From NCBI RefSeq assembly GCF_900089455.2, contig NZ_LT907988.1, positions 2,666,001 through 2,730,000 on the forward strand: DNA of 64,000 bases. The letters are read 5' to 3'. The stretch comes from Orrella dioscoreae (GTDB lineage Bacteria > Pseudomonadota > Gammaproteobacteria > Burkholderiales > Burkholderiaceae_B). The notes under the pieces are model-generated. The model ran no database searches. It saw only the letters and a list, made by a program, of their open reading frames with translations, and was not told where the DNA came from. Positions 2,416 through 61,842 of this stretch are shown piece by piece. Made by a program: the position numbers and the translations under genes. Positions within the stretch are counted from its first letter, which is position 1. Each line of letters starts with the position of its first letter.

Positions 2416-2443
2416 TGCAGCCCCTGTCCGAAGGCCGCCCGGC

Positions 2444-3568: not shown

Positions 3569-3594
3569 AGCCCTGCTGACCGCGCCATCGCTGC

Positions 3595-30940: not shown

Positions 30941-31248
30941 GGAATCAGGGCGGCGGAAAGCAGGCGCCGGGGCCGACGCATCGACCAATATACTGTATAT
31001 CCATCCTGTATCGGCGGGCCGTTGGCGCGCAGCACGGGAAAACACGTTTGCATCCGGCGGCCAATGCCTCTTGCGCCACAGCCAGGCGCCCACCAGAAAA
31101 GCAAGCCCGCCGCGCGGCGTCTTGCGCGATGCCTTGCGCCAGCGCAGATGCCCGCGAGACAGCGGCCTCGGGCGCCAACGCGCGAACCTAGAATGGATTC
31201 GCACGCCGACCCGACACCGGACCCCTCTTGAAACATTCCACCGAAGTC
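30941..31248. other. Intergenic region between helicase and cyclase genes
   Basis: This 308-bp divergent region must hold promoters for both genes. It contains a half-matching SOS-like site at 30993-31008 (CTGT, eight bases, then CCTG instead of ACAG). No coding frame with a ribosome site was seen. Confidence 0.4.
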
Positions 31249-32673
31249 ATGGCGCTGGATTGGGCACATACCCATTCCCGCTACAGCGCCGAGCAATGCC
31301 AACTCGCCCAGGATGTCTCCGCCCGCCACACGGCGGCGCTTGCCGATGACTTCTACGATTGCATGCTGGCGGACCAGGGCGCGGCCTTCTTCCTGTCGCA
31401 TGAGCTGGTACAGACGCGCCTGCGACACGCCATGCAGGAATGGCTGCTGACGGTGTTCGATGCGCGCCACCTGGCGCAGTTCCAGGCAGCGGTGGCCTAT
31501 CAATACCGCATCGGCGAAGTGCATGCGCGCATCGAGATTCCGGTGCACTTCATCATTCGCGGCATGCGGCTGCTGACCCGGCGCATGCACGAACTCCTCC
31601 ACGCTGAACCGGATGCCTTGCCTCACGCCGTGCTGGGCGCCTGCCGGTATATTTCGGAAGTCACGCTGATCTCGGTCGAGATCATGTGCCATGCCTATGA
31701 AACCTCGCACGACCGCAAGTCACGCGCCGAGGAAGGCTATCGGCTGCTGGCCCTGTCGCAGAACATCGGCGCGGAAAAGGAACGCCAGCGCGCGGCGCTG
31801 CTGGATTGGGAAAACCAGCTCATGTTCGGCCTGTCGGCCAACCTGCCGTGGCAGCAGTTGCCGCGCATCCGCAAATCCGAGTTCGGCCTGTGGTTCACCC
31901 ACAAGGCCTCGCACGCCTTCGAGGGCGCCAGCGAAACACGCAGCATCCTGCTGCAGCTGGCACAGGTCGATTCGCTGATCCAGACCGCCTCGCACCACCC
32001 GCCCGGCAGCGCGCAACGCGCGCAAGCACTGCAAGGCATCCGCGACGCGACCCAGGCGGTTGCCTATCTGGTCGAGTGCCTGTTCGAGCAGGCGGGCAAC
32101 CTGGAGTCCGGCCGCGACACGCTGACGCGGCTGCTGAACCGCAAGTACCTGCAGGTGGTCATGAACAAGGAGATCGCCTACGCCCGCAAGATCGGCGCGC
32201 CGCTGTCGGTGCTGCTGGCCGACATCGATCACTTCAAGCTCATCAACGACACGCACGGCCACGACGGCGGCGACGTCGTGCTGCAGCAGGTGGCCAGCCT
32301 GATCTCGACCTACAGCCGCGGCGGCGACTACACCTTCCGCCTGGGCGGCGAGGAATTCCTCATCGTGCTGGTGGATGTGGACGGGCCCCAGGCCCTGAGC
32401 GTGGCGGATGCATTGCGCCGCCGCGTGCAGGAACGACCCGTGGCGTTGCCCGATGGCAGCCGCGTGCAGGTGACGCTGAGCGTGGGCGTGTCCGGACACA
32501 GCGGCCATCCCGATTACCAGCGCCTGCTGAAAAGCGCCGACCAGGCGCTGTACGCGGCGAAGGCGGCGGGCCGCAATCGCTGCGTGCTGGCGGAAGACGA
32601 CACCGACATGCCCTCCGGCGCGCCGGCCAGCCACGCGGCAGGCCATCAACCGGTACGCGCCGGCGCGCGCTGA
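31249..32673 (+). CDS. Globin-coupled diguanylate cyclase (BpeGReg/DosC type)
   Basis: Sensor enzyme of 474 residues that makes c-di-GMP in response to a heme ligand such as oxygen. Residues 1-150 form a sensor globin; the probable heme-binding His lies in RIGEVHARIEIPVHF. A linker domain follows, then a GGDEF domain from about residue 290 (DTLTRLLNRKYL). The active site reads GGEEF, which is catalytically competent, and RGGD five residues before it is an intact inhibitory I-site. Length equals Bordetella BpeGReg. A TTG at 31228 is an alternative start. The gene lies beside the hemophore locus, separated only by the DUF454 gene. Confidence 0.87.
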   Translation: MALDWAHTHSRYSAEQCQLAQDVSARHTAALADDFYDCMLADQGAAFFLSHELVQTRLRHAMQEWLLTVFDARHLAQFQAAVAYQYRIGEVHARIEIPVHFIIRGMRLLTRRMHELLHAEPDALPHAVLGACRYISEVTLISVEIMCHAYETSHDRKSRAEEGYRLLALSQNIGAEKERQRAALLDWENQLMFGLSANLPWQQLPRIRKSEFGLWFTHKASHAFEGASETRSILLQLAQVDSLIQTASHHPPGSAQRAQALQGIRDATQAVAYLVECLFEQAGNLESGRDTLTRLLNRKYLQVVMNKEIAYARKIGAPLSVLLADIDHFKLINDTHGHDGGDVVLQQVASLISTYSRGGDYTFRLGGEEFLIVLVDVDGPQALSVADALRRRVQERPVALPDGSRVQVTLSVGVSGHSGHPDYQRLLKSADQALYAAKAAGRNRCVLAEDDTDMPSGAPASHAAGHQPVRAGAR

Positions 32674-33101
32674 GGCGTGTCTCCATCGCAACCCGCGCCA
32701 CGGAGACGGGTGGCGCTTGGCGCGGGCCGCGTGGCCAGCCACGCCGCACAGGCCGCCATGCCGGCGGTCACCGCGCCCCCCAGCCATCCCCCCGGATTGG
32801 CTCCCCACCAGAACATCACGGCCCCCAGCGTGATGCCGCCGACCGCGAAGCATTTGCCGCGGCGCGAGATGGCGCCCTCTTCCCGCCAGGCCACGAGCGC
32901 TGGGCCATAGCGCGGGTGGCGCAGCAGCCAGGCCTCCCAGCGCGGCGACGCCCGGCCGAAGCAACTGGCCGCCAGGATGACGAACACCGTGCTGGGCATG
33001 ACCGGCAACACCGCGCCCAGCACGGCCAAGCCCAGGCACGCCAGCCCGCAGGCGAAATACAGACGGCGGCGCCAGCGCGCCTGCCAGCCCGTGTCCGGCA
33101 T
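32646..33101 (-). CDS. DUF454 (YbaN-like) inner-membrane protein
   Basis: Small membrane protein of 151 residues with the DUF454 pattern: a first hairpin of helices, GLAVLGAVLPVMPSTVFVILAASCF, then a conserved ASPRWEAWLLRHPRYGPALVAWREEGAISRRGK loop, then two more helices. YbaN of E. coli has the same layout and no known function. The 3' end overlaps the cyclase gene by 28 bp. It lies 11 bp after hasF on the same strand. Confidence 0.8.
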   Translation of the reverse strand: MPDTGWQARWRRRLYFACGLACLGLAVLGAVLPVMPSTVFVILAASCFGRASPRWEAWLLRHPRYGPALVAWREEGAISRRGKCFAVGGITLGAVMFWWGANPGGWLGGAVTAGMAACAAWLATRPAPSATRLRGAGCDGDTPQRAPARTG

Positions 33102-33112
33102 GACCGCCGCCC

Positions 33113-34507
33113 TCAACCGCCCGCCCTCGGCGAGACCCTGCTTGCGGCGCGCACGGATGACGGCGGCGCGAGGAACAGCATGCCGACCGCGGACACGTCG
33201 CTTTCTTCCAGCACGCCGGCCTGCCAACGCAGCGTGAGCCACGCCAGCAGGTTGTCGTAGCGCGCCCGCGCCAGGTCGCGCAGGGCCTCCACGCGTTGGC
33301 GTTCAGCGTCCAGGACATCCAGGTTGGTGCGTTCGCCGCCCAGCACGCTGCGGCGCGTGGCCCGCAACCGGCCCGCCGCCGCATCGGCGGCCCGCTGGTA
33401 TGCCGCGATGCGCCGCTCGCTGCTGGCAAGCAGGTTGTACTGCCGCTCCAGGTCATCGAGCATCGCCCGTGTGTCGGCCTCCAGCTTGTGCTGGGCCACA
33501 TCCTGCTGCGCCAGGGCCTGGGCGCTGGCCGCGCTGGTGCGCCCGCCGCTGTAGAGCGGCACCGAGATTTCCACGCCGACGGTATTGGTGTCGTAGCGCT
33601 GGCCGATCTGGTTCTCGGCATTCGAGTCGGTCAGTTGCTTGCGCGCGTACAGGCGCACGCTGGGCAAATGGCCCGCGCGCGCCGCCTCGCGCCGCTGGCG
33701 GGCGGCTTCCAGCAGGCGACGCTGGGCGGCAAGTTCCGGATTGCTGTTCAGGGCGGTATCGCGCCACTGCGCCAAGGGCTGGGGCGAGCCCGCCAGCTGC
33801 GCCATGGCCCGCGCATCCAGGGGCGCCAGCGCCGCCTCGCCCAGGTCCGGCCCGACCACGGCACGCAAGGCGTTGCGTGCGTCGCGCAACTGGTCTCGCG
33901 CCTCGATCTCCTGCGCCTGCACCAGGCCCAGGCGGGCCTCGATTTCCAGGCTGTCGGTGACAGTGCCCTCCCCGCCCGCCACGTAGCGCTCGCTGCGCCG
34001 GGCATCCTCGTGCAGGGTTCGCGCCTGCGCCTCGGCCAGTCCCAACGCCTCCTCGGCATACAGCACATCGGTGTAGACCTGCAGCACCCGCACGGCCAGC
34101 GCCTGCCGCGCCCGCGCCAGCGTGAAGCCCGCCGCCTCGGCTCGGGCCGCCCCCTCGCGATACTGCGCGAACGCCGCCGCGTCGAAGAGCGGCTGGGTCA
34201 GCGTGAAACCAGAGGAATAGCTGTTGTAGCGATAGTCCTGGGTCACCTCGCCGAACAGATTGCTGCTGCGCGACTCGGTCCAGTTTCGTCCCCGGTTGTA
34301 GCGGTACTGCACCGTGGGCAGAAGGCCGCTGCGGCCCAGGGCCCGCTCTTCCTGGTCGGCCCGGGCCTGCGCGCGCGCCTGCGCCCACGTGGGATCGGCG
34401 GACAGCGCCATCGCATAGGCCTGGCGGAAATCCACGGATTGGGCGCAAGCAAGGAAAGACACGACGGACAGGCAAGCCGCGGCCGTCCGGCGAAACCCGC
34501 GCATCAT
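33113..34507 (-). CDS. hasF: TolC-family outer-membrane channel of the hemophore exporter
   Basis: Outer-membrane efflux protein of 464 residues. A signal peptide ends near LACAQSVDF. Two repeats of long coiled-coil helices and barrel strands follow, with the typical internal pattern QARTLHEDARRSERYVAGGEGTVTDSLEIEAR and SVPLYSGGRTSAASAQALA. The start ATG overlaps the stop codon of hasE (ATGA), so this dedicated channel is translated with its adaptor. Serratia relies on a separately encoded TolC-like HasF, so its inclusion in the unit is notable. Confidence 0.85.
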   Translation of the reverse strand: MMRGFRRTAAACLSVVSFLACAQSVDFRQAYAMALSADPTWAQARAQARADQEERALGRSGLLPTVQYRYNRGRNWTESRSSNLFGEVTQDYRYNSYSSGFTLTQPLFDAAAFAQYREGAARAEAAGFTLARARQALAVRVLQVYTDVLYAEEALGLAEAQARTLHEDARRSERYVAGGEGTVTDSLEIEARLGLVQAQEIEARDQLRDARNALRAVVGPDLGEAALAPLDARAMAQLAGSPQPLAQWRDTALNSNPELAAQRRLLEAARQRREAARAGHLPSVRLYARKQLTDSNAENQIGQRYDTNTVGVEISVPLYSGGRTSAASAQALAQQDVAQHKLEADTRAMLDDLERQYNLLASSERRIAAYQRAADAAAGRLRATRRSVLGGERTNLDVLDAERQRVEALRDLARARYDNLLAWLTLRWQAGVLEESDVSAVGMLFLAPPSSVRAASRVSPRAGG

Positions 34508-35874
34508 GACTCTCCCCATGCCGTCCGGACCCGGTCCTGCAAGGGCTTGAAGAGGTAGTTCAACAAGGACCGCTCGCCGGTGCGCACGAAGACCTCCACC
34601 GGCATGCCCGCGCGCAAGGGCGCGTCGCCCAGGCGGGCCAGCTCGCCGGCGCCCACCTGCACCCGCAAGGTGTAATAGGGATGGCCGCTGCGCTCGTCCT
34701 CGAAACGGTCCGCCGACACCAGCGCGACCTCACCGGCTAGGCGTGGCGTGCGGGCGCTGTCGAAGGCGGAGAACATCAGCTCGACGGGCAGCCCGGCGTA
34801 CACCTTGTCCACGCTGGCGACGGGCAACCGGCCTTCCACTGTCAGGGGCTGGTCCTGGGGCACGATCTCCATGAGCCGGGTGCCGGCCTGCACCACGCCG
34901 CCCACGGTGTGGGCGGCAAGACCCACCACGATGCCGCTGGCCGGTGCGCGGATTTCCGTGTGGGCCAGTTCGAAGCGCGCCGTCTCCAGCCGCTGCGCGG
35001 CCTGCTCGGCCTGCACGCGGGCCTCGGCCAGATCGGCGCGGACTTCCTGCTGGAAGGCGTCACGGCGCTGCTGGGCCCGAAGGTTCAGTTCCGCCAATTG
35101 CTGGCGCGTCTGGCCGATGGTGCCCAGGTCCGACGCGATCTCGCCCGACAACTGCGACTGCATGCGCGACAACTCCAGCAGGCGGTTGCGCGGCACATAG
35201 CCTTCTTCGGCCAGTCCTTTCAGGTTGTCCACCTGTTCGCGCAGCAAGGTCTGTTGCGCGCGCTTGTGGGCCAGCGATGCCTCCAGGCCGGACAGCAGGT
35301 TGCGGCTGCCCTGGGCGGACGCCTCGATGCCCGACAGTTCTCCCGCCAGCGACGCGCGCCGGCTGGCGAAGAGCTGGCGTTCGAGCTCGAAGGCCGCCAG
35401 CGCGCGCGTGTCTTCCGCCCCGATGGCGGGCCGCGCGATGTCCGCGCTGCCATCGCGCTCGGCCGTCAGCCGCGCCACGCGTGCGGTCAAGGCGGCCAGT
35501 TGCTCGCGCAGGCCCTGCGTTTCACCCTGCGCGCGCGTGGCATCCAGCCGCAGCAAGGGCTGGCCCGCGCTGACGGTCTCGCCCTCGCGCACCAGCAGCT
35601 CGCCCACCACGCCCCCGCCCAGGCTGTCCACCGCCTGGCGCTCGCCGCTGACCACCACCACGCCGGGCATGGGCACGCCATTGTCCAGCGGCGCAAGCGC
35701 CGCCCAGGCCAGGAAGCCGCCGAAACCCAGCAGCACGACCCACCAGCCCAGGCGTCCCGGGCGTGCATCGCGCAAGCGGGCGTCCTCGGCCGTCGGCCAC
35801 AGCACCGCGTCCTCGATATCGGCGGACGCGGTTTGCCCGCGCGAGGGGCGGCGCGCGATCACGGCCTGGCTCAT
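34504..35874 (-). CDS. hasE: HlyD-family adaptor of the type I exporter
   Basis: Membrane-fusion protein of 456 residues (HasE/PrtE group). One N-terminal membrane helix around residues 42-62 (LGWWVVLLGFGGFLAWAAL) is followed by a lipoyl half-domain (GVVVVSGERQAVDSLGGGVV), a long coiled coil, and a C-terminal beta-barrel (GAGELARLGDAPLRAGMPVEVFVRTG). It links HasD in the inner membrane to the TolC-like channel. Overlaps of four bases on both sides show translational coupling. Confidence 0.87.
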   Translation of the reverse strand: MSQAVIARRPSRGQTASADIEDAVLWPTAEDARLRDARPGRLGWWVVLLGFGGFLAWAALAPLDNGVPMPGVVVVSGERQAVDSLGGGVVGELLVREGETVSAGQPLLRLDATRAQGETQGLREQLAALTARVARLTAERDGSADIARPAIGAEDTRALAAFELERQLFASRRASLAGELSGIEASAQGSRNLLSGLEASLAHKRAQQTLLREQVDNLKGLAEEGYVPRNRLLELSRMQSQLSGEIASDLGTIGQTRQQLAELNLRAQQRRDAFQQEVRADLAEARVQAEQAAQRLETARFELAHTEIRAPASGIVVGLAAHTVGGVVQAGTRLMEIVPQDQPLTVEGRLPVASVDKVYAGLPVELMFSAFDSARTPRLAGEVALVSADRFEDERSGHPYYTLRVQVGAGELARLGDAPLRAGMPVEVFVRTGERSLLNYLFKPLQDRVRTAWGES

Positions 35875-37799
35875 GCCTTGTCTCCTTGATGCTTGATCGT
35901 CATGCCGGCGGGCATGGCATAGGCCCCATCCGTGCCGGTCGCCCTGCGGCGCAACCCAGGCACCGGGCCGGTGGCCGCCAGCCCGGCCGTGGCGCTGTTG
36001 GCGGCGGCGTCCGAGGCCACGGCGGACGGGTTCGCCGCCTGCCTGGCCTGGCCCGCGTCCTGCAACTTCGCCAGCACCTGCGCGGTCGGTCCCACGCCTT
36101 GCAGCTGTCCGGCCCGCAACACCAGCAACTGGGTCGTGGCCGCCAACACCTTGGGTTTGTGCGTGATCAGCACGACGGTCGCCTTGCGGGCCCGCAAGCC
36201 TTGCAGCGCGGCCATCAAGGCCTGCTCGCCTGCGTCGTCCAGGCTGGCATTCGGTTCGTCCAGCACCACCACGCTCGGTTCGCCGTACAAGGCCCGGGCC
36301 AGGGCCACGCGTTGACGCTGCCCCCCGGACAAGCCTTGGCCTCCCATGCCCAGCACGGTGTCATAGCCTTGCGGCAGCCCCAGGATCAACTCGTGCGCCC
36401 CCGCCGCCTGGGCGGCGGCCACGACACGTGCCGCGCGGCTGGCCTGCGCCTCGTCGGCCTCATCGCCTGCCGGCTCCTGGAAACGTGCGATGTTCTCGGC
36501 CACCGTCCCGGCGAACAATTCGACATCCTGGGGCAGGTACCCCATCCACGGCCCCAGCCGCTCACGATCCCATTGCGCCAGGTCTGCCCCATCCAGCCGC
36601 AAGACACCGACGCGTGGCGTCCAGATGCCCGCCAGCACGCGCGCGAACGTGGACTTGCCGGAACCCGACGGACCGATCACCCCCAGCACCTCGCCGGCAG
36701 GCAGCACCAGGTTCAGGTTCACCAGCGACGGCGTCCGCGCGCCTGGCGGCAGCACCGTCACCCCCTCCACCCGCAAGGCGCCGTCGGGGCGCGGCAGCGG
36801 CAAGCCCGCCGCGGGCTCGCCGTGGTCGGACAGCAAGGCCTGCAGGCGCGCATGCGCCAGGCGCGTGCCGCTCCATTGCCGCCACGCCGCGATCACCTGG
36901 TCGATGGGACTCAGCACGCGCCCCATCAGGATGGAGCCGGCGATCATCATGCCCGGACTGATCCGGTTGTCCATGGCCAGCCAGGCGCCCAGCCCCAGCA
37001 CCGCCGATTGCAGCGCAATGCGCAGGCTCTTGGAAATCGCGCCGATGCCGACCGACGTCCGGCTGGCCTGCGCCTGTCTTCCCACGTAGGCCCGGTGCAG
37101 GCGCTGCCAGCGCCGTTGCAGCGCGCCCAGCATGCCCATCGCCTGGATGCTCTCGGCGTTGCGCAACTGCCCTTCGGCCAGCAGGTTGGCCCGCAGCGAC
37201 CAGGTGCCCGCCTCGGCCAGCGGCGTGCGGGATTGGCGTTCATTCAGCCAGGCCAGCCCCATCAGCAGCAAGGCGCCCGCCAGCGCCAGCACGCCCAGCC
37301 ACGGATGCAGCAGGAACATCACCAGCAGGAACAGCGGAAACCAGGGCGCGTCGAAGAAGGCGAACACGGCGCTGCCCGTCATGAACTGGCGCAGGGTGTT
37401 CAGGTCGCTCACGGCCTGAGCCGCATTGGCGGGCTGTCCCGCCAGCCCGCGCCGGAAGGCGGCGCCATGCACCTGTCTGCCCAGCACCGCATCGAAGCGC
37501 GCCCCCAGTTGCACCACCACCATGCCGCGCGCATATTCCAGCGCGCCCATCATGGCCAGCAGGCCGAGCATCAACAGGCTCAGCATGACCAGCGTGGCCG
37601 GATTGCCCGACGCCAGCACCCGGTCGTAGACCTGCAGCATGTACAGCGCCGGCGCCAGCATCAGCAGGTTGATCACTGCGCTGAAGGCCGCCGCGCTGCG
37701 CCACGCGCCGCGATAGCGCCGCAACACGTCGCGGATGTCCACGGAAGCAGGCGCGCCCGGATCGGGTGGCGCGGCGGATGCGCGCACGGAGTCGAGCAT
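35871..37799 (-). CDS. hasD: Type I secretion ABC transporter ATPase/permease
   Basis: Fused permease-ATPase of 642 residues, HasD/PrtD family. The N-terminal membrane domain (to about residue 320) starts with YRGAWRSAAAFSAVINLLMLAPALYMLQVYDRV, the PrtD hallmark. The nucleotide domain has Walker A GPSGSGKST, signature LSGGQRQRVALARAL, Walker B VVVLDEPNASLD and the H-loop ITHKP. It recognises the uncleaved C-terminal signal of its substrate, here almost certainly the HasA protein encoded just upstream. A 137-bp gap with hairpins separates it from hasA. Confidence 0.9.
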   Translation of the reverse strand: MLDSVRASAAPPDPGAPASVDIRDVLRRYRGAWRSAAAFSAVINLLMLAPALYMLQVYDRVLASGNPATLVMLSLLMLGLLAMMGALEYARGMVVVQLGARFDAVLGRQVHGAAFRRGLAGQPANAAQAVSDLNTLRQFMTGSAVFAFFDAPWFPLFLLVMFLLHPWLGVLALAGALLLMGLAWLNERQSRTPLAEAGTWSLRANLLAEGQLRNAESIQAMGMLGALQRRWQRLHRAYVGRQAQASRTSVGIGAISKSLRIALQSAVLGLGAWLAMDNRISPGMMIAGSILMGRVLSPIDQVIAAWRQWSGTRLAHARLQALLSDHGEPAAGLPLPRPDGALRVEGVTVLPPGARTPSLVNLNLVLPAGEVLGVIGPSGSGKSTFARVLAGIWTPRVGVLRLDGADLAQWDRERLGPWMGYLPQDVELFAGTVAENIARFQEPAGDEADEAQASRAARVVAAAQAAGAHELILGLPQGYDTVLGMGGQGLSGGQRQRVALARALYGEPSVVVLDEPNASLDDAGEQALMAALQGLRARKATVVLITHKPKVLAATTQLLVLRAGQLQGVGPTAQVLAKLQDAGQARQAANPSAVASDAAANSATAGLAATGPVPGLRRRATGTDGAYAMPAGMTIKHQGDKA

Positions 37800-37822
37800 G
37801 GTGAAGGCCTCGGCATGAAACC

Positions 37823-37917
37823 GGCGATGCCCTGAGGGCTGGCATCGCCAAAAACAGGAAAGGTCCCGGACGCGATGCCCGGGACCGGTATCCCGGCAGC
37901 CTTGGCGGCCGCCGGGA
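37823..37917 (-). terminator. Tandem hairpins between hasA and hasD
   Basis: Three stem-loops in transcription order: TCCCGGC with GCCGGGA (37917-37891), GGTCCCGG with CCGGGACC (37886-37862) followed by TTTCCTGTTTTT, and GGCGATGCC with GGCATCGCC (37849-37823). The middle one looks like a partial Rho-independent terminator and could lower expression of hasDEF relative to hasA. Confidence 0.65.
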
Positions 37918-37936
37918 TGACGACGTGGCAGCCCGT

Positions 37937-38545
37937 TTAGGCCGCCAGCGCCACTTCCGTCTCGGACAGCGCCGAGGCGCCGACCAGGTCGGCGATGGAC
38001 ACGCCGTCCAGCGTCAGGCCGTTGGCTTGCAGGGCGGCCAGCAGGCCGCCATTGCTCACCGTGTTCAGGCTGTCCGACGCGCCCGACACCGAGCCGTTCA
38101 TCAGGCCCCAGATCACGTCATGGACGACGTTGGTGCGGCCATCGGCGATGTCCCCCACCAGCGGCGTGTCGAAGTTGAACGTGAGGAAGGGCTTGTCGAC
38201 GACGCCCGTGTCCGACACGCCCGCGCCCAGCGTGATGCTGGTGATCGAGCCGTGCAGGGTGTGCGACACCGGGCCGTCACCGACCGAACCATTGAGCGGC
38301 GGGAAGTAGTAGCTCAGGTTGCCCGTGGCCAGGAAGGCGAAGCCGTCCACCAGCGTGCTGGTGTAGCCGTAGCTGGTGCCGTTGAAGGTATCGCCGCCGA
38401 AGAAGCCGCCATAGTTGGGCGCGCTGGTGTGCTCACCTTGCACACCGTTGTTCTGGAATTCGGTCAGGACGGTGCGCAGGTCATCGTCGGCGGAGGTGAA
38501 GTCCGGGAAGAAGTCTTCGTCGTAATCACTGATGTAGGCGCTCAT
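37937..38545 (-). CDS. hasA: Secreted hemophore HasA
   Basis: Extracellular heme-binding protein of 202 residues with no N-terminal signal peptide, as expected for a type I substrate. His39 lies in GEHTSAPNYGGFFGG and Tyr79 in TGNLSYYF; these match His32 and Tyr75 of Serratia HasA, the axial heme ligands. His95 in SHTLHGS matches His83, which assists the tyrosine. The C-terminus ALSETEVALAA resembles the uncleaved secretion signal of HasA. Compared with Serratia, eight extra residues separate Tyr and the assisting His. AGGAGTG precedes ATG 38545; an upstream frame extension is not credible. The receptor and exporter genes flank it. Confidence 0.9.
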   Translation of the reverse strand: MSAYISDYDEDFFPDFTSADDDLRTVLTEFQNNGVQGEHTSAPNYGGFFGGDTFNGTSYGYTSTLVDGFAFLATGNLSYYFPPLNGSVGDGPVSHTLHGSITSITLGAGVSDTGVVDKPFLTFNFDTPLVGDIADGRTNVVHDVIWGLMNGSVSGASDSLNTVSNGGLLAALQANGLTLDGVSIADLVGASALSETEVALAA

Positions 38546-38617
38546 AACAACACTCCTGTCTGAAGTTTCGATGCCGGAATCGCTTCCGGCGCCCAGGATG
38601 GCGAGGCTCGCCACCCC

Positions 38618-38665
38618 CATGCGGCAACACGCCGCATGTCCCTGCGCCGCGCGCACTCGCGCGGC
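38618..38665 (-). other. Two hairpins between hasR and hasA
   Basis: CATGCGGC pairs with GCCGCATG around AACAC (38618-38638), and GCCGCGCG pairs with CGCGCGGC around CACT (38646-38665). Neither has a T-run. They lie in the 126-bp gap and could stabilise the hasA transcript's 5' end or protect the hasR 3' end. Confidence 0.5.
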
Positions 38666-38671
38666 AATCCC

Positions 38672-41600
38672 TTAGAAATGGATCTCCATCCCGACCTGCA
38701 CCGTCCGGCCTGGCGCATAGGTGCGTGCCAGCGCGTCCGAGTAGCCGTCGCGGTACATGCGGTCGGTCACGTTCTCCACCGCCGCCATGAGCTTGATCTG
38801 CTTGGTGGCCTGGTAGCTGGCGAACCAGTCCCAGGTCGTGTAGCGGAACCAGGTCTGCGCGCCGCCGGTCTCGCGGTTGTAGTAACCATTGCCGCTGTAG
38901 GTGAAGCGCACGCCGGTGTCGAGCTTGCGTTCGAACATGCGCACACCCAGCACCGCGGCGCCCTTGTCCACCGGCTTGGCGATGGCGCTGTTGAAGACGT
39001 TGTTGCGGCACACGATCATGTCGTTCACCCAGGCCTCCCACGAGGGATAGCCCGCCGCCAGGGCATCCTGGTGGCCTTGCGGATAGCTGCCGTCCTCGTT
39101 CGGCTGGTCGTGCACGCTGCTGCCGGCGCCGGCGAAATACAGGTCCTGGCAGAACTTGTTGGCGCCGCCCAGGTAATGCGTGTAGGACAGGCCGGCATAG
39201 ATCCAGCCTGCGTCGTAGTGCCCTTCGAACTCCAGGCCACGGAAATTGGTGACGTTCCGGTTGTTGACGAAAGCGACCTTGCCGAAGCCGAAAGGCACTG
39301 TCGTGCCCGTGCCCGGCAGGTTGTTCTCCAGCGAGGAATACAGGTAGTTGTAGGCGCGGGTATCGAAGTAGCCGAGCTTGGCCGACAGGCGGTCGCCGCG
39401 CTGGAATACGTCCTGGAACTGGGTGTTCACGCCCAGTTCCCAACTGCGCGTCGTCTCCGGATCGGCGTTGGGGTTGGGATACATGACCGACGCGTTGTCA
39501 CCGGGATGCGCCCCCACCATCAACGATTCGTTGATCGCGGGCGGACGCCACGAGCGGCCCCACGTGCCATAGAGTTCCAGCCAGGATGTCGGCCGGACCG
39601 CCGCGGCCAGCGAGGGCAGCAGCTTGCCTTCGCTGCGGTCCACGGACGAGTCATACATGCCCTGGCGCTGCGTCCACTGGGGTGCCAGGTTCGGGTTGTT
39701 CCAGTAGCCCCTGCGGTCGTTCGCCTCCATGAAGGCAGCCGCGCCAGCCTCGCCGCCCGTGCGTCCAGCCTCGCACGCCCTGCGCTGCGTCGCCGAGGTG
39801 CCCGGGCAGAAACGCGCCATGTAACGCTGGAAGCGGTCGACATACTCATGCTGTGTGCCCGGCACCTGGGTATCGCCCTTGAGCCAGTACCGGTCATAGC
39901 GCAAGCCTGCCGAGAGCGTGTAGACCTCGTTCTCGAACGTGACGTTGGCAAAGAGGCCGCCCATGTCACGCTTGCCCTTGGGGTTGAGCCCGACGCCCTG
40001 GCCGTAAGGGTTGTACGACGGCACCGCGCGGCCCTTGTGATCGAGGGCGATCGAGGAACTGGCACGGTCCGTGTAGTACTCGCCGCCATAGTTCACGCGC
40101 AGCACGCTGGCCTCGCCGATCGGCAGGCGCGACGTGTTGTCCAGCTGCATGCCATGGGTCTTGGTGCGGATGCGGTGATCGGAGCCCAGCCCGTAACCGC
40201 AAGCGGTGCGCACGGAATCCGCCACCGTCTCGCCTTCGCAATTGCCCCGCTCCCAGGCGCCGTCCACGGACAGCCTGATCAGTTCCGGGTCCGTCAGCGG
40301 CACGGTTCCGCTGCCGATGCGCAGCGAGCGCGGATACGTCGGGTCCGTGTAGTTCCGGTTGCGGGTATCGACGGAATACAGCTTCAGGTTCAGGTCCACC
40401 AGGTTGTTGCCCGGCGGCTGCAGGCGGTAGTCCAGCGAATACCCCTGGGATTGCACGCGCGAACTGCCCAGGCTGCGCCACACCGTGCCCCCCTGCTGCA
40501 TCGACAGGTCGGCATCCGTCGTGTTCTGGTAGCCCACCTGCGTGCCCACGTAGCTGAACTGCAGCGACTGGCCGCCGTCCAGGTTCCAGCGGGCCTTGAA
40601 CAGGCTGGAGTTCTGGCGCTGGCTGGCGTACTTCACGTCGTTGAACGCGGCCAACTCGCCGTCCTGCCAGGCGGTGTTGTGGTTCGCGCCGCGCGAGCCG
40701 ATCTCGTAATCGCCGAAGGAACGGCGGGCATAGGCGGCCAGCAGCTCCACCCGCTCGCCCACCCGCGCCGCGCCCGCGGCGCTGCCGATGAAGTTCACGC
40801 CATTGCCGGCATTGCCCAGGCCGGTGTTGGCGCGCAGCCGAAAGCCCAGGTGCTGGCCTTCGCGCAGCACGTCATCGAAGTCCAGCGTGCGGAAGTTGAC
40901 GCTGCCGCCGATGGCGCCCAGGCCGTGCACATCCGAGCGGGGCCCGCGCTCCACCACCACGGTGGACAGCAGCTCGCTGTCGACGAACATTTCGCCATTG
41001 CGCTGCATGTGCCCGGTCTGCACGAAGTTCTGGCGCATGCCGTCGATCATCATGTTCACGCGGCCGAAATCCTGCATGCCGCGGATGTTCACCGACAGGC
41101 CGGGGTTCAGGCGATTGACGGCGCTGGCCACGCCCGGGGTGTCCTGGATGAGGTCGGCGGCATGCCGCGCCGGCGTGCGGTCCATCTGTTCGCGCGTGAT
41201 CACGCTGACCGCGCGCGGCGTCTGGTAGACCCACTGGTCCTCGGGGATCCTGCCCACCACCACCACTTCCGGCAGCGCATGCACGCTGACACGCGATGCC
41301 GCGGGCAGCGCATACAGCTGCACCGCCAGGCGCCCGCCGTCGCGCGGCGCCGCGTAGCGGTAGCCCACGCCCGAGCCAGACAGCAGCACATCGAGCCCTT
41401 GCGTCACCGTGAACTGCCCCACCAGCGGGCTGGCCTGCAGATGACGCAGATCGGCTTTGCCGACAAACAGATCGATGCCTGCCTGCTGGGCGAAGACCAT
41501 CACGGCCTCGCCCAGAGGCTGTGCGGCGATGTTGAACTGCCGCACAGCCTGTCCCGCCTCGACCGTCTGCGCCTGCCCCGCGGCAGGCGACTGGGCCCAG

Positions 41601-41683
41601 GCAGCCGCTGGCGGCAAGACCGCCAGCGCCCCTGCCGCCAGTGCCTTGCCCGCCAACCCCATTCGTCCTCGTGTTCTTTTCAT
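38672..41683 (-). CDS. hasR: Heme/hemophore receptor HasR with signalling domain
   Basis: TonB-dependent receptor of 1,003 residues. Order: signal peptide to about residue 31 (AAAWAQ); an STN signalling domain, about 45-115 (QFNIAAQPLGEAVMVFAQQAGIDLF); a plug from about 145 (PRAVSVITREQMDRTP, VNIRGMQDFGRVNMMIDGMRQ, RGPRSDVHGLGAIGGSVNF); and a barrel with FRAP/NPNL-like sequences WRPPAINESL and NPNADPETTRSWELG and a C-terminus ending in Phe. The STN domain should pass a heme-loaded state to the FecR-type protein encoded upstream. The adjacent hasA identifies it as HasR. It imports heme taken from HasA. Confidence 0.9.
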   Translation of the reverse strand: MKRTRGRMGLAGKALAAGALAVLPPAAAWAQSPAAGQAQTVEAGQAVRQFNIAAQPLGEAVMVFAQQAGIDLFVGKADLRHLQASPLVGQFTVTQGLDVLLSGSGVGYRYAAPRDGGRLAVQLYALPAASRVSVHALPEVVVVGRIPEDQWVYQTPRAVSVITREQMDRTPARHAADLIQDTPGVASAVNRLNPGLSVNIRGMQDFGRVNMMIDGMRQNFVQTGHMQRNGEMFVDSELLSTVVVERGPRSDVHGLGAIGGSVNFRTLDFDDVLREGQHLGFRLRANTGLGNAGNGVNFIGSAAGAARVGERVELLAAYARRSFGDYEIGSRGANHNTAWQDGELAAFNDVKYASQRQNSSLFKARWNLDGGQSLQFSYVGTQVGYQNTTDADLSMQQGGTVWRSLGSSRVQSQGYSLDYRLQPPGNNLVDLNLKLYSVDTRNRNYTDPTYPRSLRIGSGTVPLTDPELIRLSVDGAWERGNCEGETVADSVRTACGYGLGSDHRIRTKTHGMQLDNTSRLPIGEASVLRVNYGGEYYTDRASSSIALDHKGRAVPSYNPYGQGVGLNPKGKRDMGGLFANVTFENEVYTLSAGLRYDRYWLKGDTQVPGTQHEYVDRFQRYMARFCPGTSATQRRACEAGRTGGEAGAAAFMEANDRRGYWNNPNLAPQWTQRQGMYDSSVDRSEGKLLPSLAAAVRPTSWLELYGTWGRSWRPPAINESLMVGAHPGDNASVMYPNPNADPETTRSWELGVNTQFQDVFQRGDRLSAKLGYFDTRAYNYLYSSLENNLPGTGTTVPFGFGKVAFVNNRNVTNFRGLEFEGHYDAGWIYAGLSYTHYLGGANKFCQDLYFAGAGSSVHDQPNEDGSYPQGHQDALAAGYPSWEAWVNDMIVCRNNVFNSAIAKPVDKGAAVLGVRMFERKLDTGVRFTYSGNGYYNRETGGAQTWFRYTTWDWFASYQATKQIKLMAAVENVTDRMYRDGYSDALARTYAPGRTVQVGMEIHF

Positions 41684-41752
41684 GTTCTGTCCGTGCCAAG
41701 ATGCAAACGCGCATCATTAACATTGACGGACCACGAAAAGAATCGAGTAAAA

Positions 41753-41771
41753 AAAGATGAGAATTATTATC
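41753..41771 (-). promoter_or_regulatory. Fur box before hasR
   Basis: AAAGATGAGAATTATTATC matches the Fur consensus at 14 of 19 positions by eye. It lies 70 bp upstream of the hasR start, so hasR may be repressed by Fur directly in addition to control by the ECF sigma factor. Confidence 0.65.
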
Positions 41772-41825
41772 GAAGGGGCTGGAAGCGTGACGCCTGGCCT
41801 GCCACCGGGCGCAGGAAGCCGCCCG

Positions 41826-42824
41826 TCAATACACCATCGTCAGGCCGGGCAGGCGCACGGCCTTCAACCCGACCTGCGCACAGAGGCGGTCGATGGCATC
41901 GTCCAGGCTGTCCAGATGCACCAGCGCCGTGACCGGCGTGCGCACGGCCTCACGATTGAGCATCACCAGCCGTCCGGGCAGGAAGCCGTCGATGCGCGCC
42001 AACGCCTGGCCCAGGGGCTGTGCCTCGAAGCGCAACAAGCCCTGTGTCCAGTCTGCCTGGCTGTCCGGCGACATCGGGGTGGACACCACGCCCTCGTCGG
42101 CGCTGTACCGCACGCTCTGCCCTTGCTCCACCCGCGCCTGCGCACGGCCCGCGCGCGGCGGCTGCGCCAGGCCCACTTCTACGCTGTGGGCGAGCACGCC
42201 CACCCAAGTATGGGTGGCGTCTTCACGCCGCACCAGATAGCGCGTGCCCAGCGCCGTGCTGGCGCCAGGGCCCGCAACGACGACGAAGGCCCGCGGCTCG
42301 TCAGCCGAACGCGGCGCCGGCGAGAAGACCGCCTCCCCGCGCAGCAGCGTCGTGCGCCGCTGCTTGCCGTCATACGACACGTCCAGGGCGCTGTCGCTGC
42401 CCAAGAGGACCTCGCTGCCGTCTGACAGATGCAGTGTGCGCATCTCTCCCGGACGCGTACGGTGGTCCGCCGTCAGCACAGCCCAGCCGCCCATGCTTGC
42501 CACGCCCAGCCACCCGGCCAGCGCCAGGCCCGCGCCCGCCGCCATGCGGCGTGGCGCGGCGAATGCCTGCAGCAGCGACAGCAATGGATTGCGCGGCGCC
42601 CTGGGCACCGGCGCGGCGAAAAGACCGCTGCCACGCAGGTCGCCCGCCAGCGCCCAGGTCATCTCCGCGTCGGCCAGCGCCTGTCCGTGACGCGGATCGC
42701 GCGCCAGCCAGCGTGCCAGCCGCCGCGCGCTCCCGGCATCCAGCTCGCCCTCTCCCAGGCGCACGGCCCAGGCCGCGGCGGCTTCGCGCACTCGGCGCGG
42801 CACGGGGGCGTTCATTTCGGACAT
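41826..42824 (-). CDS. hasS: FecR/HasS-type anti-sigma factor
   Basis: Inner-membrane regulator of 332 residues. The cytoplasmic N-terminus has the DUF4880 pattern (AAAWAVRLGEGELDAGSARRLARWLARDPRHGQAL) that holds the sigma factor. One membrane helix follows near residues 95-115 (GAGLALAGWLGVASMGGWAVL), then the periplasmic FecR domain (EMRTLHLSDGSEVLLGSDSALDVSYD) and a C-terminal STN-like part that meets the receptor's signalling domain. ATG at 42824 has AAGG in front. It lies between the sigma gene and hasR, the same order as in Serratia. Confidence 0.87.
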   Translation of the reverse strand: MSEMNAPVPRRVREAAAAWAVRLGEGELDAGSARRLARWLARDPRHGQALADAEMTWALAGDLRGSGLFAAPVPRAPRNPLLSLLQAFAAPRRMAAGAGLALAGWLGVASMGGWAVLTADHRTRPGEMRTLHLSDGSEVLLGSDSALDVSYDGKQRRTTLLRGEAVFSPAPRSADEPRAFVVVAGPGASTALGTRYLVRREDATHTWVGVLAHSVEVGLAQPPRAGRAQARVEQGQSVRYSADEGVVSTPMSPDSQADWTQGLLRFEAQPLGQALARIDGFLPGRLVMLNREAVRTPVTALVHLDSLDDAIDRLCAQVGLKAVRLPGLTMVY

Positions 42825-42893
42825 GGAAAGGCCTTCATGAAGACTAAGACGTCTGAGAGCCTTGAAACAGTAAAGATGGCGCCAGCCATGGCC

Positions 42894-43400
42894 TCAGTCC
42901 TCGGTCCCGGCCCGCTCGCGCAGGAAATCCAGCGCCAGGGCCAGGTGCTTCTGCACGGCGCTGGTGGAAACGTTCAAGTGGCGCGCGGCATCCTGGTAGC
43001 GCATGCCTTCGATCCGGCACAGCTGGAAGATCTGCTGCGTGCGCACAGGCAGCTCCTGCAACGCATCGTGCAGGCGGCGCAGGCGTTGGCGCGCATCGGC
43101 CTGCACGTCCAGCCCGGCAGCCGGATCGTGCACCTCTTCCAGCGTTTCCAGTGCCACCGCCTGGGTGCGAGCCTGATGGTGGTTGCGGCGATGATCGATC
43201 AACAGGTGCGTGGCCACCGTGTACAGGTACGACAGCACGTTGTCCGGCATGCCTTCCTGCAGGCGCACGATCAGCCGCGCATAGCAGTCATGCAGCAGAT
43301 CCGCGGCAAGTTCGGCGTCGCCCGTCTTCAAGACCAGGAAGCGCCGCACCCGCTCCGCGTGCGCTGCATAGAGTTGCTCGATATCGGGTAAGGCCGCCAC
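42894..43400 (-). CDS. hasI: ECF sigma factor of the FecI/HasI type
   Basis: Sigma factor of about 168 residues. Region 2 is AADLLHDCYARLIVRL and YLYTVATHLLIDHRR; region 4 is LPVRTQQIFQLCRIEGMRYQDAARHLNVSTSAVQKHLALAL. The open frame reaches 43487, but that extension would run through a 17/19 Fur box, so GTG at 43400, which gives normal FecI length, is a better start; AGGA is only two bases from it. It should transcribe hasR and hasA when the receptor signals heme. Confidence 0.83.
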   Translation of the reverse strand: MAALPDIEQLYAAHAERVRRFLVLKTGDAELAADLLHDCYARLIVRLQEGMPDNVLSYLYTVATHLLIDHRRNHHQARTQAVALETLEEVHDPAAGLDVQADARQRLRRLHDALQELPVRTQQIFQLCRIEGMRYQDAARHLNVSTSAVQKHLALALDFLRERAGTED

Positions 43401-43438
43401 GTTCCTTTTGACTGTCGGGTCAAGATTGCCAAGACAAT

Positions 43439-43457
43439 GCTCATGATAATCATTATC
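43439..43457 (-). promoter_or_regulatory. Strong Fur box before hasI
   Basis: GCTCATGATAATCATTATC matches the Fur consensus at 17 of 19 positions by eye, the best in the window. It lies between hemO and hasI, 39 bp before the chosen hasI start, and implies iron repression of the sigma factor and thus of the whole system. Confidence 0.85.
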
Positions 43458-43491
43458 GCCAAGGCAGAGCGACCCAGCATGTAACACCGCT

Positions 43492-44124
43492 TTACCCCTG
43501 CGCCATGCCTTGCGCCAGGGCGATCACCCGCAGGAACGCGGCCTGCGCGCCCTCCACCACCAGCGACTCGTACTGGTCGCCCACCGGCGCCGCATCGAGC
43601 TGGGCGACGAAAGTCTTCCAGTGCAAGGCGCGGCCATCCGCGTGCGGCGCCAGATGCCGGGCGCCGAAATCGGCATCCAGCCCCAGCGCTTGCGCCGCCT
43701 TGTACAGGAACGCCGCCCCCAGGTTCGAGCCCTCGGTGACGTACAGCCATCCCAATGCGGTTGCACGGCCGGCGGCATGGCGCGGCGTGGCCAGCGGCAG
43801 GTTCAGGTAATGCTCGGGCGTCAGCCCCAGGTCACGGCAGTCCTGCTCGAGCGCGGCGAGGCGCTCGCGCTCGGCCAGACCGGGCAGCCAGCCATTCAGG
43901 ATCGGATCGCGGAAGTAATGGCGGGTCAGTTGGTGGAAGCGGTACTGCACGATCAGGAATTGCGCATAGTGCTCGCGGTCCTTCATGGGCTCGCCCGCCA
44001 TCATGGCCGCATCCACCTGGGCGTGCAGCGCGCTGGTGGCCTCCCGCAGGTGCAAGGCGCGCCCGGGCTTGCGGGCGGCATTGGGCTGCCCGGCGGGCGT
44101 GACGGTCTCGGTGGCGGTCTGCAT
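43492..44124 (-). CDS. hemO: Biliverdin-producing heme oxygenase
   Basis: Enzyme of 210 residues that opens imported heme to release iron. The proximal His is probably His34 in LREATSALHAQVDAAMM, and the distal-helix equivalent is GWLYVTEGSNLGAAFL with the Gly-rich turn. Size and motifs match the HemO/PigA/BphO group. Placed directly before hasI, it supplies the cytoplasmic step of the heme pathway. No Fur box was seen before its own start at 44124. The 391-bp gap upstream contains a riboswitch for the divergent gene. Confidence 0.88.
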   Translation of the reverse strand: MQTATETVTPAGQPNAARKPGRALHLREATSALHAQVDAAMMAGEPMKDREHYAQFLIVQYRFHQLTRHYFRDPILNGWLPGLAERERLAALEQDCRDLGLTPEHYLNLPLATPRHAAGRATALGWLYVTEGSNLGAAFLYKAAQALGLDADFGARHLAPHADGRALHWKTFVAQLDAAPVGDQYESLVVEGAQAAFLRVIALAQGMAQG

Positions 44125-53095: not shown

Positions 53096-54952
53096 CTACG
53101 CAGACAACGCCATGTCGCGCGCCGGCACCCGCGCAATCGGGTTCTGGAGATTACCGGCCATCTTCAGGTTGCCGGCGGGGTCGGCCAGGTTGACCATCTG
53201 CAGGTTGTTGCCCAACTGCAGGCGGTTCAGGCAAGAATGCAGGAACTCGGGCGCAAACAGGTTGTACCGGGCATACCTGGCCGCATGTTCGGGATGCGCG
53301 TCCTGGTATTCCAGGATGCAATCGGCCACCGCCTGCCAAAAAGTCCCCTCGTCGCAGCATTGGTTGGCGACCAGTACCTCGTTCACGTACCGCAGCACGC
53401 CGTCGAACACGTCGATGAAAATGGCCAGAAGCTTGACGTTCTCAGGCACGTCCACCGCCAGGCGATGCACGTTCTCGGGCATGTGCGCGCGCGCCTCGAC
53501 ATTGAGAATCGCCGACTCCTCGGCAATATCCTTCATGATGGCGCGTACCGGCACGCAGTTGTCCATGACGAGGATAAGGTTCTCGCCGTGGGGCATGTAA
53601 ACCAGTTCATACTGGTAGAAGCAATGCACCAGCGGCGCCAGGTAGGCACGCAGATAGCTTGCCAGCCACGCCTGCACGTCCAGGCCTGAACGGCGGATGA
53701 GTTCGGGCAGCAGCGCCTTGCCTTGCGTGTCGGTGTGCAGCAGTGCGGCCATGGTCATCAGCGACTCGCCCGGCCGCAAACGCGGCAGCGGATTTTCCCG
53801 CCACAGGGCCGAGAACATCTTCTTGTAAGGCGTATCGGCCGGGATGGCGGCTTCGTAGTAGTAGTTCCGGAAGCCCAGCGTTGCCACCTCCTTCAGGGTG
53901 GTGAAGCCGTTCTCGCGCAGGTAGTCGTCGCGCTCGATCAGGCCGCTGATGTAGTCATTGATGGCCGGGGTGCCGGACATGTAATACGGCGACAGGCCCC
54001 GCATGAACCCCATGTTCAGGATGGACAGCGAGGTCTTCACGTAGCGCTTGCTGCGGTCGGTGACGTTGAAGAAGGTGCGGATCGATTGCTGGGCCAGGTA
54101 TTCGTCGTCGCCGTAGCCCAGGCAGATGATCTTGCGATCCGCCACGTAGGCCGCGAACGCGATGGACAGTTTGTCGAACCATTGCCAGGGGTGCGCCGGC
54201 ATGAAATAGTAGTCGGCGGGGTCTGCGCCTTGCCCGAGCACGATCTCGGTGTATCGCGCCACCGTGGCCTCCCCGAGCTCCTCGCGCATGAGCTGCGCGT
54301 AGTCCAGCCCGGGGATGCTGGCGAAATGGGCATTGTCCTTGTGCACGGCCAACCACATGATCCGCACCGGCGAGCCGGCCTCCGGGGCATAGGCGCGGTA
54401 ATCGGCGGCGTTGAAACCCAGGCGCCCGTTGTTGGCCACGAACCCCGGGTGCCCCTCACGCATGGCGACCTCGATGCGCTGGAAATCCTGGGTCTGCGCC
54501 AGTTCGGACGAACTGGGCGCATCGGCCTTGGCCAGCTTGAAGGCAGCCCCATAGAGCGTGCTGCTGATCTCGTCCAGATAGATCGGCAGCAACTCTTCCT
54601 TGATGCCGATGCGCGCCCGGACATCGATGATGAACTGCAGGGCATCCAGGGGCAGCGTTTTTCCCTCCCGGACGCGCGTGATCGACTCGGCATCGATCGA
54701 CCAATGGCGCAGGGCCAGCACCCGCGCAATGAAGGTATACACGGTCTTGCCGTCGTCGCTGGTGAGCGTATAACGGGCCAGGCCGTCGTCCATGTCCTCG
54801 ATCATCTCGGGCGCCAGGATCAACTCGTGCGAGTATTCGGACAGCGCCTTGCGCAGCAAATGGCGGTTGCTGGCCGCCCAGTGCTCGGGCGTCAGGTGCG
54901 TGGCAGCCTGGGCGGGTTGCTGAGACATCAGGGTAAGCGTGGCGGGATTCAT
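53096..54952 (-). CDS. NIS siderophore synthetase (AlcC/DesD/PubC type)
   Basis: IucA/IucC-family ligase of 618 residues that activates a carboxylate with ATP and joins it to an amine. The type C features are EGHPGFVANNGRLGFNAADY, AHPWQWF, RTFFNVTDRSKRYVKTSLS and MPHGENLILVMDNC. Enzymes of this type dimerise and close rings of succinyl-hydroxydiamine units (alcaligin, putrebactin, bisucaberin, desferrioxamine). The length matches AlcC. The ATG overlaps the MFS stop (ATGA), so it is the last gene of the siderophore unit. The substrate-making acyltransferase is not in the window. Confidence 0.9.
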   Translation of the reverse strand: MNPATLTLMSQQPAQAATHLTPEHWAASNRHLLRKALSEYSHELILAPEMIEDMDDGLARYTLTSDDGKTVYTFIARVLALRHWSIDAESITRVREGKTLPLDALQFIIDVRARIGIKEELLPIYLDEISSTLYGAAFKLAKADAPSSSELAQTQDFQRIEVAMREGHPGFVANNGRLGFNAADYRAYAPEAGSPVRIMWLAVHKDNAHFASIPGLDYAQLMREELGEATVARYTEIVLGQGADPADYYFMPAHPWQWFDKLSIAFAAYVADRKIICLGYGDDEYLAQQSIRTFFNVTDRSKRYVKTSLSILNMGFMRGLSPYYMSGTPAINDYISGLIERDDYLRENGFTTLKEVATLGFRNYYYEAAIPADTPYKKMFSALWRENPLPRLRPGESLMTMAALLHTDTQGKALLPELIRRSGLDVQAWLASYLRAYLAPLVHCFYQYELVYMPHGENLILVMDNCVPVRAIMKDIAEESAILNVEARAHMPENVHRLAVDVPENVKLLAIFIDVFDGVLRYVNEVLVANQCCDEGTFWQAVADCILEYQDAHPEHAARYARYNLFAPEFLHSCLNRLQLGNNLQMVNLADPAGNLKMAGNLQNPIARVPARDMALSA

Positions 54953-56214
54953 GCTTGGATATCCTCCGGGACGGTTGGTGAGGCGGCCTTGAACAGGTCG
55001 CGCGTACAGCCCACGTCGGCAACCCGCGCCTCGCTGGCACTGGGCACGCGCAGGATGAGCCGGTCGAGCATCCCCGTCAGCAGGAAGACCGCCGCCCCGA
55101 CCACGAACGGCATGTACAAGCCATAGCGGCTGACGATGGCGCCGGCTGCGAAAGAGGACAGCAGGACACCCAGGTTCTGGAAGAAATTGGTCACGGCGAA
55201 ATCCTGCGCATAACGCTCGGGACGGCTCAGGCGGAACAGCGCCACGTCCAGCTTGACGATGATCTGGAAGATCGCCCAGCCATACAGGCAGCGCCCCACG
55301 ATGACCAGCGCGGGATCGGGTGCCCCCTGCATGAGCAGGCCCGCCATGCCCAGCAGCAGGTTGCCCAGCGTGTGATCCGGCAAGCGCGCCTGGCGGGCAC
55401 GCAGCCTGGCATGCACCCGCAAGGCGATCAACGCCAGCACGCCCGGGATGGCGAACACCGCGCCCGATGCGAGCTCCGAGTCATCGCCGCTGATCGCCTG
55501 CCAATGTGTCGAGAAGAACGGCCGTATCACATAGCAGCCGAAATCGAACAGCAACATGATCAACGCCAGCCGCAAGATGGGCATGCGGGCCCGCCAGGCC
55601 GCCAATGCCGGCAGCGGGGACGCAGGGGCGACATAGCCGGGATCGTGCGCACGCGTGGTCCGCACGATCCTGCCGCTGCGGATGAGATAGGCGCAGACGC
55701 CCATCTGGAAGAAGTCGCCCGCCGCCATCGCCATGATGCTGCCCGTAGCGCCCCATTCGCTCAGCACGAAGCCTCCCACCACCGCGCCCAGGATCGCGCC
55801 GAAGTTCACCACCACCGACAGCGTGCCCACCACGCCGGCATGCTCGGCCTTGGGCGTCAGGCGCATCAGATAGGGATACATGAGCAGATAGCTGCTCTTG
55901 CACATGAACATCAGCATGGAGAGCCCCCAGTACCAGGCCACGTCCGGCGCCCAATTGCTTGCCACGCTGAAGGTGCCCGCCGCCAGTTGCGTCCAGACCA
56001 GCAGGTGCAGCGGCTCGACCCGCCGGGCCAGGCGCGCCCACAGGGGCAGCGTGCACATGACCGCGATGGATATCGCCGCCACATACGCGCCCACGTGCAC
56101 CGAACTGTCCATGCCGTAGCGCAAGGAAAAGAACTGCGGATAAAAGGGGATCAGGATCGCGTCGCTGACCACCGCGAAGGCCGTCATCACGATGATGTGC
56201 GTGCGCAGCGTCAT
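54949..56214 (-). CDS. MFS transporter, probable siderophore exporter
   Basis: Major facilitator protein of 421 residues with twelve predicted helices (first VMTAFAVVSDAILIPFYPQFF; the TRRAHD-type loop near residue 200). The MFS signature is weak. Its place between the hydroxylase and the condensing enzyme, with ATGA overlaps on both sides, suggests it exports the finished siderophore, as AlcS does in Bordetella. It has no acetyltransferase-like domain fused to it. Confidence 0.82.
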   Translation of the reverse strand: MTLRTHIIVMTAFAVVSDAILIPFYPQFFSLRYGMDSSVHVGAYVAAISIAVMCTLPLWARLARRVEPLHLLVWTQLAAGTFSVASNWAPDVAWYWGLSMLMFMCKSSYLLMYPYLMRLTPKAEHAGVVGTLSVVVNFGAILGAVVGGFVLSEWGATGSIMAMAAGDFFQMGVCAYLIRSGRIVRTTRAHDPGYVAPASPLPALAAWRARMPILRLALIMLLFDFGCYVIRPFFSTHWQAISGDDSELASGAVFAIPGVLALIALRVHARLRARQARLPDHTLGNLLLGMAGLLMQGAPDPALVIVGRCLYGWAIFQIIVKLDVALFRLSRPERYAQDFAVTNFFQNLGVLLSSFAAGAIVSRYGLYMPFVVGAAVFLLTGMLDRLILRVPSASEARVADVGCTRDLFKAASPTVPEDIQA

Positions 56215-57539: not shown

Positions 57540-57586
57540 GGCGCTTCTCCCCTTGCCCGACTTCCCTCCCGGCCGTCCTCTTCCCT

Positions 57587-60022: not shown

Positions 60023-60142
60023 GAAAGGAATTCCTGTCTCGCGATGGTTGGCTTTGTCTGGCCACTGGCCGCGTCATCGCGGCGGGCTCATGAACAAGAC
60101 ACGCGAGAAAAAGGAATCTGCCGGGCCGTTACATCTTTTTTG

Positions 60143-60240
60143 CCGCCGGGCCGCCCCAAGGCAAAAACGGCCCCCTCGGGGGGCAGCAAGCCGAAGGCGC
60201 GGCGTGGGGGCTTTTTTTCCGCCGGGCCGCCCCAAGGCAA
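60143..60240 (-). repeat. Direct repeat and attenuator-like hairpins
   Basis: A 22-bp sequence, CCGCCGGGCCGCCCCAAGGC plus AA, occurs twice (60143-60164 and 60219-60240). Between the copies, on the minus strand, GCCCCC/GGGGGC with a CGA loop is followed by GTTTTTG, like a Rho-independent terminator. The same GC strand can pair alternatively with GGGGGC at 60206-60211, followed by T7 on the plus strand. It lies in the gap between fecR and the receptor. Confidence 0.6.
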
Positions 60241-60265
60241 GGCCCGCGGACGCCAGCACCGTGCG

Positions 60266-61823: not shown

Positions 61824-61842
61824 GATAATGCAAATTATTATC
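61824..61842 (-). promoter_or_regulatory. Fur box before the siderophore ECF sigma gene
   Basis: GATAATGCAAATTATTATC matches the Fur consensus at 16 of 19 positions by eye, and the symmetry extends outward (ATT...AAT). It sits in the gap between the permease stop and the sigma start, so the sigma gene has its own iron-controlled promoter. Confidence 0.8.

Follow-up and report, generated by a model that had tools for sequence, protein, structure and literature searches.

The has cluster and its layout

The window analysed here, a 64,000-nucleotide stretch of the Orrella dioscoreae chromosome, carries at positions 33113-44124 eight has-region genes that ORF and profile searches find open, intact and on the minus strand. 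Together they are a real, complete and acquired Has-type cluster, a known type of system in an uncommon host. In the direction of transcription, the features are:

43492..44124, minus strand: heme oxygenase of the HemO/PigA type, proximal His in SALHAQV (H34); PF01126, E 8e-21
43439..43457, minus strand: Fur-box-like site GATAATGATTATCATGAGC, 17/19 to consensus
42894..43400, minus strand: hasI, ECF sigma factor; TIGR02937, Sigma70_r2/r4; ORF reaches 43487
41826..42824, minus strand: hasS, FecR-type anti-sigma factor; DUF4880 and FecR
41753..41771, minus strand: weak Fur-like site in the hasS-hasR gap, 14/19, which may be chance
38672..41683, minus strand: hasR, TonB-dependent heme/hemophore receptor with signalling (STN) domain; TIGR01785
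37937..38545, minus strand: hasA, hemophore, 202 aa, C-terminal ALAA; PF06438
35871..37799, minus strand: hasD, type I secretion ABC exporter; TIGR01842, 725 bits
34504..35874, minus strand: hasE, periplasmic adaptor; TIGR01843, 411 bits
33113..34519, minus strand: hasF, TolC-family outer membrane channel; TIGR01844, 314 bits
about 32646..33101, minus strand: DUF454 (YbaN-like) membrane protein; PF04304, E 1.5e-31; start codon from sequence

The original prediction placed a complete eight-gene HasA system on one strand of a genome of the Achromobacter family, and it was right about both the host and the system, each component of which scores over its family model, with large margins above the cut-offs for HasDEF. 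The E-values and a gene order shared with relatives rule out a chance resemblance: the order found here, hasI-S-R-A-D-E-F, recurs in the loci with canonical HasA (L067/L070) and is kept across the eight family genomes, Halomonadaceae and Pseudomonas. The heme oxygenase in front of hasI retrieves the HemO of N. meningitidis (1j77, 5e-38) and the pa-HO of P. aeruginosa (1sk7, 3e-33) in phmmer searches, and a homologue (63%) occupies the equal place in locus L019.

At the other end of the cluster, hasD and hasE overlap by 4 bases, hasE and hasF by 16 bases, and the DUF454 gene starts 11 bases past the hasF stop, an arrangement that suggests a single transcript. The DUF454 gene, which lies beyond the region first delimited, is the probable final gene of the has operon. 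Most has loci of Halomonas and Pseudomonas likewise contain or adjoin a DUF454 gene, on the same strand and after either hasF or the heme oxygenase. Elsewhere in this genome, a second heme oxygenase gene is directly followed by a DUF454 gene (L073 5787-6823, minus strand; about 0.802 Mb on G000:C1), so that two of the three DUF454 genes of the genome lie within heme loci, and a DUF454 gene of Avibacterium is up-regulated under iron restriction (PMC7970244). The heme oxygenase at 0.802 Mb groups with has-linked enzymes of Pseudomonas.

The flanks of the cluster have features of their own. Tandem glycine riboswitch aptamers (RF00504; 44290-44466, plus strand) precede a D-amino acid dehydrogenase gene at 44465 that is divergent from the heme oxygenase gene, and a globin-coupled diguanylate cyclase gene (protoglobin, DosC_2nd and GGDEF; 31228-32673, plus strand) adjoins the end of the operon.

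Predicted regulation

We scored Fur-like sites against the general Fur consensus. The site at 43439-43457 is the top scorer of the 64-kb window. Since hasI homologues are 168-169 aa long and align only from GTG 43400, this codon, rather than the start of the ORF, is probably where hasI begins; such a start leaves the Fur-like site upstream of the gene, at about 40-57 bases. Read from the sequence, the hasI/hasS pair, the signalling domain of HasR and the putative Fur box fit the regulatory scheme described in Serratia (PMC9249621).

HasR and HasA

HasR scores 488 bits against TIGR01785 (cut-off 317) and aligns over its whole length with HasR of S. marcescens (3csl and 5c58, E about 1e-154). 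The receptor had been predicted to bear an STN domain, and this is upheld by a match to the HasR signalling domain 2m5j (E 7.6e-10), although the Pfam STN model reaches 19.5 bits, below its cut-off of 28.4. Two histidines, His225 in the plug (GHMQRNG) and His726 near a YPNP motif, are at or near the heme-ligand sites of Serratia HasR.

HasA scores 52.4 bits against PF06438 (cut-off 26.3). We rejected a start at an upstream GTG; translation from ATG 38545 gives 202 aa beginning MSAYISDYDEDFF. An AlphaFold2 model built from 30 sequences (mean pLDDT 88.3, pTM 0.86) matches no structures but those of HasA: Foldseek gives E 1e-10, and VIA gives Z values of 15.9-19.3 against the HasA proteins of Serratia, Pseudomonas and Yersinia, whereas the best unrelated chain reaches 2.3. 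The refuting outcome named in the original prediction, a lack of structural match to HasA proteins, thus did not arise. The ligand residues, too, are in place as predicted: in an alignment, as distinct from a heme-bound structure, H39 pairs with His32, Y79 with Tyr75 and H95 with His83, and all three are invariant in 30/30 HasA proteins, as is the spacing of 12 between a conserved helix Leu and the His. An alignment by eye had displaced the axial His by four residues; we discarded it, because the 30-protein alignment puts His39 in register with His32. In Serratia HasA, heme is bound by Tyr75 and His32, and in Yersinia pestis HasA by Tyr75 alone (PMC9627568). The C-terminal AA is invariant among the aligned HasA proteins, and the exporter genes adjoin hasA.

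Where HasA departs from the canonical form is in its loops. Its Tyr loop exceeds that of Serratia by 8 residues, and its His loop is shorter. The Tyr-to-His spacing is 16 here, a value shared by Achromobacter, Halotalea and two Pseudomonas; one further protein has 14, canonical HasA has 8 and most proteins of the Halomonas type have 5. This series offers a natural test of how HasA takes up and lets go of heme. The model is weaker in the long loop (pLDDT about 74, residues 81-90). It is possible, though we consider it doubtful, that the longer Tyr loop and short His loop entail a movement at heme handover unlike that of Serratia and Yersinia HasA and that, in addition, the DUF454 protein has a so far overlooked function in heme utilisation.

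Heme receptors and the inner-membrane importer

The original prediction held that the inner-membrane step must be coded elsewhere, and we found hmuS, hmuT, hmuU and hmuV on the same chromosome at about 1461317-1465073 (G000:C1), 1.24 Mb from has. No receptor gene lies beside hmuSTUV in this genome or in G489. By the one family model used, HasR is the only receptor of this genome above the TIGR01785 cut-off, and the four next-best candidates are siderophore receptors. As a control, all seven Achromobacter genomes examined that lack has carry a BhuR-type receptor next to hmuS, and such a receptor also adjoins hmuS in five of the six Achromobacter genomes that have has. The has-bearing genomes in which HasR was the sole receptor found are this one, G489 and G417, which matches A. 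pulmonis.

As the sole heme receptor over the cut-off, HasR probably feeds the HmuTUV importer; this coupling, which we infer, is the likely route. A whole hemophore system, switch and exporter included, is thus established in the Alcaligenaceae, and in some members it is apparently the sole recognisable heme front end, with the importer coded elsewhere; HasR feeding a separate importer would be a clear-cut instance of one module of a heme uptake pathway being replaced. A second hmuS-like gene occurs in two overlapping ORFs (L074 9456-10531, minus strand; about 3.6165 Mb on G000:C1) that are 43-54% identical to HmuS and represent a two-gene form or a frameshift.

Our working scheme begins with iron shortage, which, judging from the Fur box, would lift Fur repression of hasI. 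By homology, HasDEF would export HasA across both membranes via its C-terminal signal, and HasA would capture heme with His39 and Tyr79, His95 supporting, and pass it to HasR. The receptor, energised by TonB, would take the heme across the outer membrane, and its STN domain may act with HasS and HasI to raise the receptor's own expression. Heme would then enter through the separate HmuTUV with HmuS, and the heme oxygenase would release the iron.

Comparison with known systems

In Serratia marcescens the operon reads hasI-hasS-hasR-hasA-hasD-hasE-hasB, with hasB last (PMC9249621). The gene order here, apart from the flanking heme oxygenase and the TolC gene, had been equated with that of this operon, which is correct from the sigma factor gene to hasE, that is, for sigma factor, anti-sigma factor, receptor, hemophore and two exporter genes; what had been missed is that hasF replaces hasB. 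The HasA fold, the His32/Tyr75/His83 triad and, by sequence, Fur control are further likenesses to Serratia, whereas hasF (TolC) and DUF454 where Serratia has hasB, a heme oxygenase in front and a HasA that has a longer Tyr loop and is about 30% identical in structure alignments set the two apart. No hasB-type TonB gene lies within the cluster, and three TonB-like genes are found elsewhere in the genome.

The has clusters of Pseudomonas and Halomonas (L030-L047) combine hasI-S-R-A-D-E-F with a heme oxygenase and DUF454, as here, and their HasD and HasR are 55-65% and 40-45% identical to ours; they differ in the place of the heme oxygenase, after hasF in Pseudomonas and after hasS in Halomonas, and in a HasA Tyr loop that is mostly 11 residues shorter. 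The nearest relatives, sharing the 16-residue Tyr-His spacing, are the loci of Achromobacter (pulmonis, dolens, ruhlandii, insuavis) and Halotalea alkalilenta, with G489. Unlike the cluster described here, the Achromobacter and Halotalea loci were not found to include the heme oxygenase and DUF454, and most Achromobacter carriers also keep BhuR, of which none exceeds the cut-off here. The hurIR-bhuRSTUV system of Bordetella likewise places a heme receptor under ECF/anti-sigma control, and its hmuSTUV homologues are present in our genome; it has no hemophore, while hmuSTUV here stands alone, with no BhuR-type receptor over the cut-off.

The suggestion that this is a little-described route does not hold, as a review already names Bordetella and Halomonas among the bacteria with Has-type genes (PMC9249621), although we found no description of an Alcaligenaceae or Achromobacter HasA system in the literature searched. 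A 'possible hemophore' of Achromobacter (PMC12108089) is a DUF336 protein and not HasA, and all that PMC2907700 reports is a giant protein of Dechloromonas with one domain resembling HasA. The cluster is a further member of the known Has type, noteworthy because of the host that carries it, a HasR that apparently serves as sole receptor, and the loop lengths of its HasA.

Distribution, origin and alternative explanations

HasA over the cut-off was found in 8 of 268 family genomes, representing 3 of 43 genera, and in 1/399 genomes of an order-wide and 6/398 of a phylum-wide sample. It is therefore rare in the family of Achromobacter and Bordetella but not unique to our host: A. pulmonis, dolens, ruhlandii and insuavis carry the cluster, which makes it relevant to how Achromobacter obtains iron. 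The search for named HasA used peptides of the family's clade and under-samples distant HasA genes. HasA was not found on plasmids.

In trees of HasDEF and of HasR, the sequences of the family group together in a single clade, next to which stands Halotalea alkalilenta (Halomonadaceae), and AU tests reject the placement of Halotalea with the other Halomonadaceae (p 1.6e-6 for HasDEF, 1.7e-62 for HasR). The joint Alcaligenaceae and Halotalea clade lies beside Halomonadaceae in the HasDEF tree with 100/100 support; its neighbour in the HasR tree has 49/9 support and is left unresolved. These trees, together with the AU rejections, make it well supported that the cluster moved between classes from a recent source in common with Halotalea/Halomonadaceae, and they agree, along with the patchy distribution, with the earlier view that the locus was acquired. 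For the direction of transfer, the rarity of the cluster and the HasDEF tree make gamma-to-beta the likelier one. No empty site could be shown, as the D-amino acid dehydrogenase flank, followed in relatives, was not syntenic. No mobile element was seen beside the cluster, and no tRNA gene occurs within the 64-kb window.

Taken together, we are highly confident that the locus is a complete Has-type operon for hemophore-mediated heme uptake, acquired by between-class transfer. It strikes us as very improbable that HasA has turned to another task, such as another porphyrin or pure signalling: its Tyr-to-His spacing of 16, where canonical HasA has 8 and most Halomonas relatives have 5, and the lower certainty of the model at residues 81-90 would leave room for this, but the three pocket residues, HasR, the heme oxygenase and the exporter are all kept. 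Less remote, yet still improbable, is that HasR takes up free heme alone, making HasA dispensable, or that another, unrecognised receptor exists. Free-heme uptake by Serratia HasR does need less energy than the hemophore route (PMC9249621), and our receptor search was based on one family model; against this, all eight family loci retain both hasA and its dedicated exporter, one genome even having two hasA genes.

The cluster could also be ancestral to the family and lost in most of its members, its likeness to Halotalea reflecting transfer from the family into Halotalea. We hold this to be unlikely, if less so than either functional alternative. All family sequences do form a single clade, and one transfer into Halotalea would equally explain the AU result, but carriage in 3 of 43 genera and in one of the 399 genomes of the order sample, and a HasDEF clade beside Halomonadaceae at 100/100 support, favour acquisition by the family.

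Additional observations

Several has loci of other genomes showed peculiarities. Two different tandem hasA genes occur in G410, of the Achromobacter type (L020 9599-11054, plus strand). A HipA kinase gene with a helix-turn-helix partner lies between hasS and hasR in L021 (13464-15254) and L023 (13465-15276), both on the minus strand, with Pfam tested on L021 only; this hipBA-like pair is absent from the other Achromobacter-type has loci. In Halomonas socia, hasR is split in two frames (L037 7014-9838, plus strand) and may be broken in the record.

Within the window, a siderophore-like operon (53096-61372, minus strand) encodes an NIS-type synthetase, an MFS protein, an amine N-monooxygenase, an STN-bearing FoxA-like receptor and FecR; no acyltransferase was seen there, and a Fur-like box (16/19) lies at 61824. 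A FauA-type alcaligin receptor (1349 bits, cut-off 900) is encoded in the region 223-6466 on the plus strand, with a Fur-like box at 167, and is followed by genes that read as a periplasmic binding protein, permeases and an ATPase.
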